From the IMG/VR virus record IMGVR_UViG_3300050821_006588, positions 1-27,372 of that record: a stretch of DNA of 27,372 nucleotides, one strand, 5' to 3'. How positions within the stretch are numbered: position 1 is the first letter of the stretch; the number at the start of each line of letters is the position of its first letter. This stretch comes from a virus. The notes under the pieces were generated by a model. The model searched no databases. It saw nothing but the letters and a program-made list of their open reading frames with translations, and was not told the origin of the DNA. Below are positions 315-12,772 of this stretch, in pieces. The translations under genes and the position numbers were made by a program.

Positions 315-2060
315 GTGTCGCCTACCTACTTCCCGGTGACCGGGACGTTCCCACCGGTTGCCGAAGGTGCCGACCCTCCCACGGGCACCGTCGAATTCCA
401 GGCGATCGCCGAGGTCGCGGACGGCACCGACATCGGCACGCAGATCCCGGTCACGACGACGGTCACCGCAGGCGCGCTCGCCTCGGTCGAACTGCTCTAC
501 GTCGCCGGCATCACCTATCAAGTCACGAGCAAGATGGTCGGCGCACCGGCCGTGGTCTACGCCTTCACCCCGACCGGCTCGACCGTCGACCTGTCCGAGG
601 TGACCCGACTGGCCGTCACGCCGGGGACCTCGGGACCGCAAGGACCAATCGGGCCTCAAGGGCCTGCCGGCGCCACGGGTGCGACCGGTCCACAGGGGCC
701 GACCGGAGCGGCCGGTACGAACGGCACCAACGGAGCGACAGGGCCGACCGGCGCTACGGGTGCGACCGGTCCGCAGGGAGCGCTGGGGCCGAACGTCGGG
801 CGCAACAAGGGCCCACGCTGGGGACAGCCTTCGGCGGTCATCACGCACGCCCAGGTGGGCCACGGCTGGACCGCGTCGAACTGGTCAGGGTTCAACCTCA
901 ACGACACCTCTGATTTCGTGCACGGCTCGCAGGTGATGACCGGCAACAGCTTCGGTTCGGCCAGCCAGTTCAGCACCTTCACCAAGACCGGCGCGACCGC
1001 CGTAGACCTGACCGGCAAGATGCTCCGCGTATGGGTCAAGATTGACGCGACGAGCAACCCGGTCAACCTGAAGTTGCTCAACCTGCGCGCTGCGGCAACC
1101 GGTGGGCTGGCCGGCAACAACTACCTCAGCTGGGATCTTCAGCCGACAGCGCTGCAGGCGAACAACACCAACGCCAACGCGTTCTGGTTGCCAGCGGGCC
1201 AGTGGGTTCCGGTCGCGCTCTCGCCCGGCGACGCGTTCGTCACGGGTGCGCCGACGAAGACCGCGATCCAGGAGTGGCGCCTCGTCGCCCAGGACAACGG
1301 CACCGTGGTGACCGTCCACTTCGGCGGCATCGATGTGTACCCGACCGTGAATACCGCGTACCCCAACGGGGTTGTCACCTTTTGTTTCGATGACAGCTAC
1401 GCGGGCCAGTTTCAGCTCGCTCGGCCTCTTCTCGCGCAGTTCGGCTACCAGGCAACGATGTTCCCGATCATCGACCAGATCGGGAACGGCTCCAGCTACA
1501 CGCTGGCGCAACTCCAGTTGCTCCAGAACGAGCTCGGGTGGGAAGTCGCACCGCACGCGAGCACCCTGGCCAACCATAGCGGCTACGGCTCGCTCAGCCC
1601 GTCGCAGATCCAGGCCGACATCGCGGCGTGCCTGACGTGGCAACAGGCGAACGGTCTGCGTTGGTCCGGCGCCTACGCCTATCCGCTCGGCTACTTCGCT
1701 GGTGGGCAGGATGCGACGGTAGAACCGCTCTGCGATGCCGCGCGCACGATCGATTCGACACTCAAGTACGAGACCTTCCCCCTCGGCCAGCCCCTGCGCT
1801 TGCGCTCACAAGCAGGCGTTGGTGGCCTCGGCGGGATCGGCGTTACCACCTACACTACGGCGACGACCGGCGTCCTGGACGTGTTGCATGCGAACGGCGG
1901 TTGGGACATCATCACGATCCACGATGTGTCGGCCGGAACGTCGACGAACATCAACCAGATCAGCCAAGCCGACTTGACCACCCTGGTCACGGCCTGCAAC
2001 ACCAAGGGCATCGCTGTCGCGACGATGGGCGACGTTCTGCGCACCGCACTCAACCCGTAG
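315..2060 (+). CDS. tail fibre with collagen repeats and C-terminal polysaccharide-deacetylase-like domain
   Basis: A 581-residue protein starting at GTG 315 behind a cggag ribosome-binding site. Residues 1-100 form a beta-rich domain, perhaps for virion attachment. About 105-155 are Gly-X-Y repeats ([19 protein letters not shown]). About 160-345 look like a beta-sandwich or carbohydrate-binding region. From 350 to the end it resembles a NodB-type (CE4) deacetylase: TFCFDD with D359/D360, then HASTLANH with H414 and H421, a YAYPLG stretch matching the RxP region, and a late IITIHDV motif. The two His are six residues apart rather than three as in the classical HxxxH, so the metal site is atypical or degenerate. 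Role inferred: binding and trimming of a cell-surface glycan during adsorption. It lies at the end of the tail operon, next to the holin. Confidence 0.75.
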
Positions 2061-8524: not shown

Positions 8525-10317
8525 TTCAGTCCTCCTAGGACTTCGCGGGCAATACGGGGATCTTCGAGCAACTCGGCCAGCGAGCGAGCCTTGTCCCGCA
8601 GGACACTGCGAACGCGGCTCTCCACGGTCTTCTCGGCGACCACATCGACGATCTCGATCGACTCGTGTATTTCGCTGCCGATGCGGTGCGCACGGTCCTC
8701 GGCCTGCGACGCCTCGACGTAGGACCATGGCCGCTGCAGGAACACCACCGTGCTGGCTGCGGTGAGGGTCAGGCCGACGCCACCGGCCGAGGTGGTCGCG
8801 AGGAGAACCTGACGCTTGCCGGATTGGAACTCGTCGACGTTGAGGGTGCGTTCGCGCGCGGTCTGTCCGCCCACCACCGTCGCGGTCGAGTACCCGGCGC
8901 GCCGGCATTCCGCGTCGGCTAGGTTGATCAGCTGCCTGCTCGGCGCGAAGACCAGCGTCTGCTTGTCGGTGCGCTCGCCGAGGATCTCCAAGAGCGCGTC
9001 GACCTTCCAGCTCGGCAGCTTCAGCGTGACGTCGAGCTTCTCCACCTCCTCCATCTCGCCGAAGGGGTTCTCCTTCAGCTCGGTGTGACTGGTGACGTCG
9101 GCGGCGGCCGAGGCGAGCTGGGACAGCCGAGTGAGCTGGGCGAGGACGGTGGGCGCCGGCAGCTCTTTGCCATCATCGAGCTGGGCAAGCATGTCCGATT
9201 CCATCTGGTCATACTGCTTGCGGTACTTGTCCGGGATGGCGACGGAGCGGACCGAGTAGACCTTTGGTGGCAGCTCGGTGAGCACGTCGGCCTTACGCAG
9301 GCTGCGGTACTGGCCCATCAGACACTGCCGTAGCTCCGGCTCCCGCTCCGAGAGGCCGATGACGGTATCGCCATAGTCACCGGGGATCGTGTTGAGGTAG
9401 CGGCGGCTGTAGCGCTCGCGCGAGGGCCATGCGGCCGGGTCGACCGCGAAGAGGGTCGGATGCAGGTCCCCGGCGTTGTGCGTGATCGGTGTGCCGGACA
9501 GCGCGATGGTGACCGGCGTCTTCGCCGCGAGCTTGCGCACCACCTGGGACTGCACGGCCTGCGGGTTCTTGATCATGTGGCACTCGTCGATCACCATCGC
9601 GCCCGCGCTGAGCTTCGTAATCGGCCCACCCGAGGACGAGTACGGGTCCATGTCGTTGCGCGCGGTCGCGTAGGCCACCACGAATACGTCCGCGTCGGTC
9701 TCGGCCAGCCGACGCCGGGTGCTGGCCGCTCCCCGCCACGCTGCGACCTTCAGCGTGGTCCAGGTCTGCCACGCCGACACCCATGAGTCGATGACCGAGT
9801 TCGGGCACACCACGATGATCGGCGCGGCGATCGGGAGCTGCCCTCGATCGCGCAGGGCCAGGATGGCGAGGATGGCCGTCAGCGTCTTGCCGGTGCCGGG
9901 GTCATCGAAGACGAACCCCCCTCGGCCGGTGGCAGCGGCGATCGAGGCTCCGGCGAGTTGATAGTGTCGGGGTGCCGGCGCGTCCGTTCGTAGTTCGGAC
10001 GCGCCGGTCACCGGCTCGATCCGCGCCCGCTTCAGCAACTCGCCGGTCAGCCAAGCCGTGTACCGCGCGCCGGGGTGCCAGAGCGGTCCGAGTTCGGCGC
10101 CGAGCTGTACGGCCAACGGCCAGCTGAGCTCGTACTGGACACCCCCCTTCGGCTTCGTCGCCCGAGCGGTGACGGTGATGTCGGAGAGATGGCCGAGGGT
10201 GGTCGGCTCGAACTCGCCCTCGGCCGTGACGATGACGACGTTCTGGCCGTCTGCCGAGAGCTCGCCGAAGAGGTGCTGCTCGGCGAGTGCCGGCGCGAAG
10301 TCTTGAGCCGTGGTCAC
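8521..10317 (-). CDS. SNF2/SF2-family DNA helicase
   Basis: A 598-residue protein starting at GTG 10317 (GTGA overlap). The helicase motifs are all visible: DDPGTGKT (138-145, Walker A), DECH (244-247, Walker B), SGTP (274-277, motif III), GGVGLTLTAAS (motif V) and QAEDRAHRIG (motif VI with the arginine finger). The pattern QxxDRAHRIG is characteristic of Snf2-type ATPases. Such enzymes use ATP to translocate on double-stranded DNA and remodel protein-DNA or branched complexes. Many actinophages carry one beside replication and recombination genes, as here with the RuvC-like, Cas4-like and SSB-like genes. The N-terminal 110 residues are a non-catalytic domain. A 12-bp-stem inverted repeat lies within the coding sequence at 9975-10007. 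Confidence 0.9.
   Translation of the reverse strand: MTTAQDFAPALAEQHLFGELSADGQNVVIVTAEGEFEPTTLGHLSDITVTARATKPKGGVQYELSWPLAVQLGAELGPLWHPGARYTAWLTGELLKRARIEPVTGASELRTDAPAPRHYQLAGASIAAATGRGGFVFDDPGTGKTLTAILAILALRDRGQLPIAAPIIVVCPNSVIDSWVSAWQTWTTLKVAAWRGAASTRRRLAETDADVFVVAYATARNDMDPYSSSGGPITKLSAGAMVIDECHMIKNPQAVQSQVVRKLAAKTPVTIALSGTPITHNAGDLHPTLFAVDPAAWPSRERYSRRYLNTIPGDYGDTVIGLSEREPELRQCLMGQYRSLRKADVLTELPPKVYSVRSVAIPDKYRKQYDQMESDMLAQLDDGKELPAPTVLAQLTRLSQLASAAADVTSHTELKENPFGEMEEVEKLDVTLKLPSWKVDALLEILGERTDKQTLVFAPSRQLINLADAECRRAGYSTATVVGGQTARERTLNVDEFQSGKRQVLLATTSAGGVGLTLTAASTVVFLQRPWSYVEASQAEDRAHRIGSEIHESIEIVDVVAEKTVESRVRSVLRDKARSLAELLEDPRIAREVLGGLK
9975..10007. repeat. 12-bp inverted repeat within the helicase gene
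   Basis: ccggcgcgtccg (9975-9986) is exactly complementary to cggacgcgccgg (9996-10007) across nine bases. It lies within the codons for the segment joining the N-terminal domain to the ATPase core. It could pause transcription or be chance in GC-rich DNA. Confidence 0.5.
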
Positions 10318-10625
10318 TTTTCGGTTTTCCGCTCTCTACGGACGCGTACTGACTCAGCTGCCATTTTCATAGCATGCTCGTGCCGCTGTTCCGGGGTTTT
10401 CGCCCCGACAGATGCAGCACGAGCGGCGGCGGTTCGTGCTGTGCGGTCTTTGGTGTTAGCCCAGGATTTTTCGGCCCCCAACCGCCCATTAACCGAGCGC
10501 ACCTCCGAAATGGGCACCTCCGCACGCACATCACCTGTAGTCTGCCAACGTTTGTAGTGAGAAAGACACCACCCACGCGATACGGCCCGCTTCGTGCAAA
10601 TTGGTACACTGCATAGTTTACTCAT
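10314..10625 (-). CDS. small zinc-motif, basic protein (HNH-like N-terminal knuckle)
   Basis: A 103-residue protein. Start ATG 10625 was chosen because it places the zinc motif at the very N-terminus (MSKLCSVPICTKRAVSRG then WCLSHYKRW, a C-x4-C-x9-C-x2-H pattern), the arrangement seen in many actinobacterial and actinophage proteins. The longer frame from 10745 reads through the tRNA-like element. The C-terminal half is Arg/Lys-rich and helical (MAAESVRVRRERKTEK). It probably binds nucleic acid. No HNH catalytic core follows the knuckle, so nuclease activity is not supported. There is no ribosome-binding site before the ATG; the tRNA-like element ends two bases upstream. Confidence 0.65.
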   Translation of the reverse strand: MSKLCSVPICTKRAVSRGWCLSHYKRWQTTGDVRAEVPISEVRSVNGRLGAEKSWANTKDRTARTAAARAASVGAKTPEQRHEHAMKMAAESVRVRRERKTEK

Positions 10626-10626
10626 G

Positions 10627-10714
10627 TGCGTTGTCGGGAATCGAACCCGATCGGCCCGGTCTGCGGCCGTTCCCCCGTTTCGCTCCGTCGACTGCCGGAA
10701 CTCACGGCAACGCT
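10627..10714 (-). other. tRNA-like element
   Basis: This fills the 100-base gap between two genes. The T-arm is a perfect consensus: stem TCGGG/CCCGA enclosing TTCGATT (10634-10650). The 3' strand CAACGC pairs with GCGTTG at 10708-10713, giving a six-pair acceptor with an A-A mismatch at the end; total length is 88 bases, as in class II tRNAs. A CGGCC/GGCCG hairpin lies where a long variable arm would be, and GTTCC/GGAAC pair around a 23-base loop. No five-pair anticodon arm with a seven-base loop and U33 can be formed and no D-arm is evident, so it is not a standard tRNA. It is either a decayed tRNA gene or a tRNA mimic. Confidence 0.5.
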
Positions 10715-10725
10715 CCACCAACCGC

Positions 10726-11565
10726 TTACGCGGCCGGACTCCCACCCCCGGTCATCGCTGCCAGCTGGGCCGCAACCTCGGGAGGCAATCCCGCGAACTG
10801 TCCCTGCACGGCGGCAGGTACGGGCTGAACACTCTCGATGGTTGCCGTCGCTGCGGGGGGCACTGCTGAGGGCGTAGCGACAGGCACAGAAGCAGGAACC
10901 GGGGCCACAGGCGCTGCCGTAACTGAGGACGGTGCGGCTTCCTGGGGTGCAGCGGGAGTTGCCTGCGGGTTCCGAGCGTAGACCACCTTGATCGACGTCG
11001 AGATGGTCTGGAACTTGTTCTTGAACTTGCGGGTGACGGTGATCTGGGCCATGTCACCCATCTTCGGTACACCCGAACAGCCGACGGCGGCCATCCCGGA
11101 CTTGAGAGCGTCCCAGTGCGCGCCGGACACAAACCAGGCCGCATCCTCGCCGTTGTCCAGCCGCACGACCGGGGCGACCATCACCAGGCGCGGGTTGCCA
11201 TCGGACTGGTAGAGCACCTCGGTTGAGTTCGGCTTGGTCTGGGGGCGGATGTGCGTCTTGTCTATGTCGACCTTGAACTGGATCGTCACCGACTGGCCCT
11301 CCTGCATGTCACCGATCGGCAGGGAAGCACCACCAGCGGTCGCTTGCTGGCCGAGGAAGGCATCGAGCGAAACCTCGATCTGCGGTGCCGGAGGGACTGG
11401 CGTGCCGATGCCAGGGTTGCCCGACTGTGCGGGCTGCTGGAACTGCTGAAGAGCGTTCGGCGGCGTGAAGGTGGGGAACTGGGCTGCGGGCTGCGCGGCT
11501 GCCTGCTGGGCCTGGAACTGCTGGAAAGCGGCCCACTGCTGCTCGGGGGTCATCGGTTGATTCAC
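10726..11565 (-). CDS. probable single-strand-binding-like (OB-fold) protein with low-complexity tails
   Basis: A 279-residue protein starting at GTG 11565, preceded by AGAGAGA. The N-terminus is Gln/Ala/Pro-rich (residues 1-60). The central part (about 65-185) is beta-rich, with QSVTIQFKVDIDK, RLVMVAPVVRLDNGEDAAW and GDMAQITVTRKFKNKFQTIS, resembling an OB-type nucleic-acid-binding barrel. The C-terminal 90 residues are Pro/Ala/Val-rich and end in GGGSPAA, without the acidic tip of bacterial SSB. It stands among recombination and helicase genes and is the first gene after its own promoter at 11603-11631, so it is probably needed in quantity. The SSB assignment is inferred; it might be another replication accessory factor. 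Confidence 0.5.
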   Translation of the reverse strand: MNQPMTPEQQWAAFQQFQAQQAAAQPAAQFPTFTPPNALQQFQQPAQSGNPGIGTPVPPAPQIEVSLDAFLGQQATAGGASLPIGDMQEGQSVTIQFKVDIDKTHIRPQTKPNSTEVLYQSDGNPRLVMVAPVVRLDNGEDAAWFVSGAHWDALKSGMAAVGCSGVPKMGDMAQITVTRKFKNKFQTISTSIKVVYARNPQATPAAPQEAAPSSVTAAPVAPVPASVPVATPSAVPPAATATIESVQPVPAAVQGQFAGLPPEVAAQLAAMTGGGSPAA

Positions 11566-11825: not shown

Positions 11826-12629
11826 TTACTTGGACACAGTCCCCGGACAGCCGAGGACCGAGTTGTCGTGGGCCGCCTGCGGGCGGTACGCGGGGCAGAA
11901 GAAGCACTCGTCATGGCTCGGCTCGCGTGGCACCTGATCAAGCGTCATCCGTGCCATCGAGACCTGAGCAGCCAGAAGCTTGCGACGCTCGGTATCGGCG
12001 AACACCTCACCCAGCAGGCGCACGATCTCGGCATCGAACGCATGCTCCCACACGTACAGACCGTCCAGAGTGGACCGTGTGCGCGGGTAGGCGATAATGG
12101 CGATCCGCTGTACCGGCTTGCCGGCGCGCAGGTAGCCGAGGCCGTAGAGCGCGAGCTGGGCAACGTACTTGCGGGGTGGGCCTTCCTTCCGCTGGATCTT
12201 CGCCAGACTGCTGTCGCCGAGGCACTTGTGATCGAGCACCGTCGCGGTCTGAGTGTCGTAGAGGTCGGCAGTCCCACTGTGGTCTGGGTGCGGAACAACG
12301 CGGTTCTCGGTGATCCAGCGCTGCGGGTCGTCAGCAGCGAACGCATCGGCCAACCATGCGTGCAACGCGGTGCCCACTACCGAGGGCCACGGATCAGCGA
12401 CGTGATTGGTCGGCTGCTCGCGCAGCAGCTTGCCGACCACCTGCCGGTCGCAGGACACCCCCAGCTCGGAGGGCCCCAGGTGCACCTGTTGGCTGCGCGG
12501 CGCGAAACTGGCCTGCCGAGCGACAAGCTGCCGTACGTGCTCGGCCATCGACTGTGCCCACGGGGTATTGCCACTCGGCGGAGGCGGCGCGGCGCCGGAG
12601 GACACGAACTGATCCAGGATCGAGGTCAT
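11826..12629 (-). CDS. Cas4/RecB-like PD-(D/E)XK exonuclease with Fe-S cluster
   Basis: A 267-residue protein starting at ATG 12629 (ATGA overlap). ELGVSCDRQ contains C60, and C242, C245 and C261 (ECFFCPAY and GCPG) lie at the end. One N-terminal plus three C-terminal Cys is the 4Fe-4S arrangement of Cas4 and AddB-type nucleases. H90 in GTALHAWL, D122 in GTADLYD and VLDHKC with D133 and K135 form the PD-(D/E)XK active site, and YVAQLALYG with Q158 is the RecB QxxxY-like motif. Role: exonuclease producing single-stranded ends for recombination in replication or repair. No CRISPR array or other Cas gene is present, so a CRISPR role is not suggested. Confidence 0.82.
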   Translation of the reverse strand: MTSILDQFVSSGAAPPPPSGNTPWAQSMAEHVRQLVARQASFAPRSQQVHLGPSELGVSCDRQVVGKLLREQPTNHVADPWPSVVGTALHAWLADAFAADDPQRWITENRVVPHPDHSGTADLYDTQTATVLDHKCLGDSSLAKIQRKEGPPRKYVAQLALYGLGYLRAGKPVQRIAIIAYPRTRSTLDGLYVWEHAFDAEIVRLLGEVFADTERRKLLAAQVSMARMTLDQVPREPSHDECFFCPAYRPQAAHDNSVLGCPGTVSK

Positions 12630-12772
12630 AGGACAATCCATTTCTGGTGGCACCGTGTGCACTCCATGAGGCCAACAGGCCCCAGCAATACGTGGTGGAC
12701 TATGAGACTGCTGTTGTGCGGCACGACGTGCCCCGTCCACCAGCACCACGCTTTGATCAGTCGGCGTTTCAT
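12626..12772 (-). CDS. very small zinc-binding protein
   Basis: A 48-residue protein starting at ATG 12772 (ATGA overlap at both ends). CWWTGH near the start and MECTRCHQKW near the end give Cys/His ligands for one zinc ion, with a hydrophobic stretch (SSLIVHHVLLGPVG) between. Small proteins of this form are common in actinophages; their function is unknown. Confidence 0.6.
   Translation of the reverse strand: MKRRLIKAWCWWTGHVVPHNSSLIVHHVLLGPVGLMECTRCHQKWIVL

Follow-up and report, generated by a model that had tools for sequence, protein, structure and literature searches.

Analysis of the window, a 27,372-nt stretch of DNA from a virus (hereafter the source phage), reveals that positions 10714–10626 of the minus strand form a genuine tRNA-shaped RNA element. 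Judged by sequence, this tRNA-like structure (TLS) belongs to an undescribed family of elements carried without annotation by many actinobacterial viruses, the well-studied mycobacteriophage D29 among them, and it probably marks a place where viral RNA is cut. The existence of the phage TLS family is a firmer finding than the idea that the element gives rise to a leaderless mRNA in the source phage. No earlier description of such a family was found in the open-access literature.

The TLS occupies the 97-nt gap between a gene of SSB-like position (279 aa), whose stop codon is located 11 nt upstream of the element, and a gene for a 103-aa HNH-like protein (Table 1). On the minus strand, its 5′ border is formed by G10715 followed by A10714 (position 1), and its 3′ border by A10627 (position 72) and C10626 (position 73) followed by the ATG at 10625–10623. 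The 1:72 pair, A10714:A10627, is mismatched. The T-arm consists of TCGGG (10650–10646), the loop TTCGATT (10645–10639) and CCCGA (10638–10634), again on the minus strand. In the predicted fold, the acceptor and the 5-bp T-arm are accompanied by a long hairpin on the D side and by a variable-like arm, and no anticodon arm was found in the fold of 10714–10626. The minimum free energy of the element is −41.8 kcal/mol (z −2.6), with 2 of 200 shuffled sequences being equally good. The original prediction, made from the letters alone, had described a tRNA-like element with a T-arm, a six-pair acceptor and no valid anticodon arm, together with a variable-arm-like hairpin and a discriminator-like base at 10626 directly next to the ATG. 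Sequence and fold agree with this description, the hairpin being the CGGCC/GGCCG arm and the base being the C at position 73. The predicted length of 88 nt has to be corrected to 89 nt once the acceptor is counted as seven positions with the first pair mismatched. The TLS carries the features of the phage family, namely a 6-bp acceptor, a 3′ end of the form C[AT]AC[CG]C-AC and the T-loop TTCGATT.

Table 1. Coordinates of the TLS, its parts and the neighbouring genes in the window.
Feature	Position	Strand	Basis
TLS, 89 nt, without anticodon arm	10626..10714	-	Fold, descriptor and covariance model with exact boundaries
Acceptor stem, 5′ strand GCGTTG	10708..10713	-	Sequence, fold
Acceptor stem, 3′ strand CAACGC	10628..10633	-	Sequence; covaries across the phage TLS family
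T-arm TCGGG-TTCGATT-CCCGA	10634..10650	-	Sequence; T-stem covaries in the phage TLS family
Variable-like arm, CGGCC/GGCCG pairing	10652..10669 (limits approximate)	-	Fold
Discriminator C (position 73), with a predicted RNase Z cut on its 3′ side	10626..10626	-	Relatives keep the AC tail
103-aa HNH-like protein, zinc-binding N-terminus of phage HNH endonucleases	10314..10625	-	PHROG 5351 and 1271
Upstream gene, 279 aa, SSB-like position and look	10726..11565	-	ORF; no family match
Cas4-like exonuclease, same operon	11826..12749	-	PHROG 1674; BLASTP to L140

A descriptor consisting of the T-arm and the 6-bp acceptor matches once in the window, at the TLS, where 0.064 matches are expected by chance (0.001 with an ATG directly after). 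Applied to 189 kb from four other actinophages, this descriptor matches the D29 TLS, six annotated tRNAs and, falsely, one site within a gene. ARAGORN calls no tRNA at the TLS, and Rfam gives no match to it at gathering thresholds, the best sub-threshold model being tRNA-Sec with 21.9 against 47 bits. No match at threshold was obtained among the TLS loci tested with Rfam, part of that search being run at E up to 1. A tmRNA, with its tRNA-like domain and tag reading frame, was detected at the TLS neither by ARAGORN nor by Rfam. A Y RNA was likewise not matched by Rfam at threshold, a weak match to Deinococcus_Y_RNA below threshold (E 3) being restricted to the T-arm side, and no Ro60 was found among the proteins scanned (a subset of the ORFs).

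By way of blastn matches (112 records), elements of this kind were identified between genes of cluster A mycobacteriophages, where they are situated between Pleft-type promoters and the first leftward gene. These phages include D29, SWU1, AnnaL29 and Twister, whose examined records carry no RNA-gene annotation. In D29, an unannotated TLS is present in the leader of the Pleft operon at 48085–47979 on the minus strand (L009 1043–1149). Fourteen cluster A elements fold jointly, with two-sided changes at 14 pairs. A covariance model built from cluster A leader elements alone, the TLS of the source phage being left out, matches the window at exactly 10714–10626 (26.3 bits, E 1.3e-4), and this match ranks first among those of the model in 0.88 Mb of phage DNA rich in tRNAs. 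True tRNAs and other tRNA-like matches score up to 23.5 bits as compared with 26.3 for the TLS, so the model by itself does not separate the TLS cleanly from tRNAs. A covariance scan, the first check suggested with the original prediction, is positive with the cluster A model and sub-threshold with the tRNA-Sec model of Rfam. No match to the cluster A model was found in Kampy (A4), where a possible divergent element with a 6-nt T-loop is present.

Members outside cluster A were obtained independently. The 3′ end of the TLS is found in none of 84,980 genomes and in three viral contigs (L140, L141 and L142); no host tRNA shares it. L140 and L141, both actinophage contigs of IMG/VR, have an acceptor, A1:A72, T-arm and C73 identical to those of the source phage, while L142 has C1, and none of the three elements is called a tRNA. 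With the cluster A model they score 33.7, 33.7 and 39.7 bits, respectively, values of which a part, like the T-arm match, follows from their choice by a pattern fixing the 3′ half. The match of their 5′ acceptor strand is independent of that pattern. The L142 element (1548–1634, minus strand) is situated within a phage tRNA array, with 15 tRNAs at the locus, and was missed by ARAGORN. The 23-mer GGGTTCGATTCCCGACNACNCAC is present in 1 of the 84,980 genomes and in nine viral contigs, all nine of which have the partner strand of the TLS acceptor and no tRNA call at the element. That sole genome match (L149 3823–3868, minus strand) is a 46-nt minimal TLS on a possible phage contig from yak rectum that was binned as Alistipes; with 24.0 bits, this element of a Bacteroidota bin is a borderline member. 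Exact longer sequence patterns gave no matches. Further members are present in Indlulamithi (48 nt), MrMiyagi (50 nt), EagleEye and the contig L144, and the elements of D29, Indlulamithi, MrMiyagi and EagleEye are intergenic and oriented in the coding direction.

Comparison of 12 distinct cores reveals two-sided changes at 6 of the 12 acceptor and T-stem pairs, and their covariation score is 0.384 against 0.088 for shuffled and at most 0.085 for slid alignments. Position 1:72 is unpaired in 11 of the 12 cores, and the middle of the element varies from 48 to more than 100 nt among members. Conservation in relatives, which the original prediction had left to be looked for, is present as an anticodon-less design shared by several unrelated phages, with compensatory changes. 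A histidine-type G-1:C73 pairing was considered and rejected as inconsistent among members. Two annotations in these phages deserve mention. Indlulamithi has a second, weaker TLS-like match (L150 1301–1388, 17.5 bits) that overlaps the junction of genes 52 and 53. In MrMiyagi, the annotated start of gene 55 (L151 700–1176) lies within the TLS; the gene probably begins farther along, behind a ribosome-binding site.

The proteins of the window include a WhiB-like match in the family search, and terminase relatives were also identified; together these point to an actinobacterial host. When the upstream gene, the polymerase and the HNH-like protein were used as queries, IMG/VR yielded no relatives of the source phage. 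L140 also carries a WhiB gene and has the order Cas4-like exonuclease, small gene, TLS, and its exonuclease is 31% identical to that of the source phage (BLASTP E 7e-32). In the source phage and in L140/L141, the TLS comes after a Cas4-like exonuclease gene and one further gene, although similarity between the intervening genes of L140 and the source phage is not detectable. The descriptor finds no TLS in the Cas4-exonuclease neighbourhoods of Gordonia phage Hamood and Rhodococcus phage Madraxi, so this gene order is not general. The SSB-like upstream gene has no match in Pfam or PHROG, and an HNH domain was not detected in the 103-aa protein. GC3 of the HNH-like gene (10314–10625) is 0.54, the lowest among the genes measured (others about 0.8), which suggests a recent import.

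The HNH-like gene starts at ATG 10625, directly after C10626. As claimed earlier, this start has no ribosome-binding site: pairing with the anti-Shine-Dalgarno is −2.7 kcal/mol as compared with about −7 to −13 kcal/mol at clear starts, and no Shine-Dalgarno is evident from this pairing energy. In relatives, the next start codon is usually located about 20–60 nt past the element and has its own Shine-Dalgarno. Such a spacer and Shine-Dalgarno, common in relatives though not defining, are absent from the source phage, in which alone a direct junction of TLS and ATG was seen. A general rule of this kind was rejected, as T-arm + N10 + ATG in viral contigs retrieves mostly ordinary tRNAs or very short ORFs. 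L115, a candidate for a TLS before a polymerase ATG, was also discarded, having a Shine-Dalgarno and a better start further on.

We lean towards the explanation that the phage TLS family acts as a cutting and end-protecting signal for host tRNA enzymes, with RNase P and RNase Z cuts producing a leaderless start in the source phage. The TLS would be transcribed inside an mRNA or leader RNA, which in the source phage would be a leftward transcript running from the exonuclease through the SSB-like gene, the TLS and the HNH-like gene to the helicase. RNase P would cut before A10714 and RNase Z after C10626. These cuts would leave the upstream message with a 3′ end that is defined or protected. The downstream message would start at, or within one base of, AUG 10625 and may be read as a leaderless mRNA. 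Leaderless mRNAs are readily used by actinobacterial ribosomes. A point against processing by RNase P and RNase Z is the combination of a 6-bp acceptor with a mispaired 1:72, which makes a less than ideal substrate. Because the relatives have a spacer and their own Shine-Dalgarno, production of leaderless mRNA is not the general role of the family; in the source phage, the element may have the special use of giving a leaderless mRNA through RNase Z. We put forward only tentatively, and with more doubt than belief, the full proposal that an anticodon-less tRNA mimic of actinophages, unlike curated families, serves as transcript punctuation through which host RNase P and RNase Z would yield upstream RNAs that are stable and have a defined 3′ end and, here, a leaderless mRNA at the AUG, making expression of the HNH-like gene dependent on tRNA maturation.

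The best present clue that the TLS family may mark RNA ends comes from an indirect match of coordinates in mycobacteriophage L5. The L5 position was transferred from SWU1 by a 177-nt difference in genome length, for which the L5 length is one we take to be correct, and this offset places the TLS at about 51,229–51,135. The region downstream of Pleft in L5, D29 and StarStuff has been reported to yield the most abundant phage RNA, which is stable and processed into species of 100–500 nt, from a locus that is toxic when cloned (PMC5712189). The same study gives the start of the L5 Pleft RNA as 51,672, which by the offset is within a few bases of a promoter-like site of SWU1, and its 3′ end as about 51,140–51,190 with no evident terminator (PMC5712189). 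The cluster A TLS would thus be inside the Pleft non-coding RNA of L5, D29 and StarStuff, near its reported 3′ end, and the available text describes no tRNA-like structure there (PMC5712189). On these coordinates, the 3′ end of the TLS would meet that of the L5 Pleft RNA.

Among other explanations, a rather unlikely one is that the TLS escapes cutting and works as a regulatory element at the start codon, where its fold or a tRNA-binding protein (synthetase, EF-Tu or a phage protein) controls translation of the HNH-like gene. In its favour are the absence of a Shine-Dalgarno, the end of the helix two bases ahead of the AUG, and the precedent of E. coli thrS, where an operator mimics tRNA. However, the start codon is further off in relatives, and such a role fits poorly with the tRNA array of L142 and the long leader of cluster A. 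It is also unlikely that the TLS is released as a trans-acting small RNA, for example a decoy for tRNA-cutting or -modifying toxins or for defence enzymes, with its position being incidental. It offers no anticodon for cutting, the L142 element lies among tRNAs, and the L5/D29 locus is toxic and gives a very abundant stable RNA (PMC5712189), but the middle varies from 48 to more than 100 nt among members.

We give only a small chance to a decayed phage or host tRNA from which the anticodon arm has disappeared, possibly following the arrival of an HNH-type mobile gene alongside. The absent arm, the foreign composition of the adjoining HNH-like gene, and the HNH genes near tRNAs in Marav and SpecialK are in line with it. 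Against this, several unrelated phages share the anticodon-less design with compensatory changes, decay is not expected to spare just the acceptor and T-arm, and the 3′ half is found in 0 of 84,980 genomes. The TLS is not a recent remnant of a host tRNA, and decay, which the original prediction kept as its alternative, is unlikely given a covarying family without the anticodon arm. Very improbable is a coding stretch, in which a start at GTG 10718 or TTG 10721 couples the HNH-like gene to the upstream stop and the resemblance to a tRNA is incidental: the frame is open across the TLS, but its codon-position GC (0.71/0.61/0.71) is unlike that of genes of the source phage, the extension has no homology, and the same nucleotides in L140 are outside any evident gene of the HNH-like kind. 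A chance fold, or a host tRNA end copied by integration (att site), is hardly credible; phages do integrate at tRNA 3′ ends, but the TLS 3′ end is found in no host tRNA, and chance is countered by the descriptor expectation (0.064 per window) and the independent model (E 1.3e-4).

The preferred reading, a cutting signal, would add tRNA punctuation to the ways in which phages shape transcripts. With no anticodon, a conserved phage TLS family has been overlooked by annotation pipelines, and its presence in the well-studied D29 and SWU1, near the terminator-less 3′ end of the most abundant early phage RNA, turns a standing puzzle into one testable with existing RNA-seq. Structures resembling tRNA are known from plant viruses, tmRNA and Y RNAs. 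Bacterial Y RNAs of the YrlA type share with the TLS the mimicry of tRNA by a non-coding RNA, but no Ro60 gene was recognised near the TLS and the match is limited to the T-arm side. Canonical tRNAs, including tRNA-Sec (RF01852), have the acceptor and T-arm in common with the TLS, which differs in its mismatched 1:72, its lack of an anticodon arm and a score far below gathering. Within the family, the elements of L140 and L141 are 67 nt long as compared with 89 nt in the source phage. The next gene there has a Shine-Dalgarno and begins after a spacer of about 25 nt, both of these being absent from the source phage. The cluster A element is located in a long non-coding leader and its gene has its own Shine-Dalgarno, neither of which holds for the source phage; its acceptor is GGGTAG/CTACCC instead of GCGTTG/CAACGC, and the D-side and long arm differ. 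It nevertheless resembles the TLS of the source phage in its 6-bp acceptor, unpaired 1:72, AC tail and TTCGATT T-arm, in having no anticodon arm and in its location upstream of a gene on the same strand.
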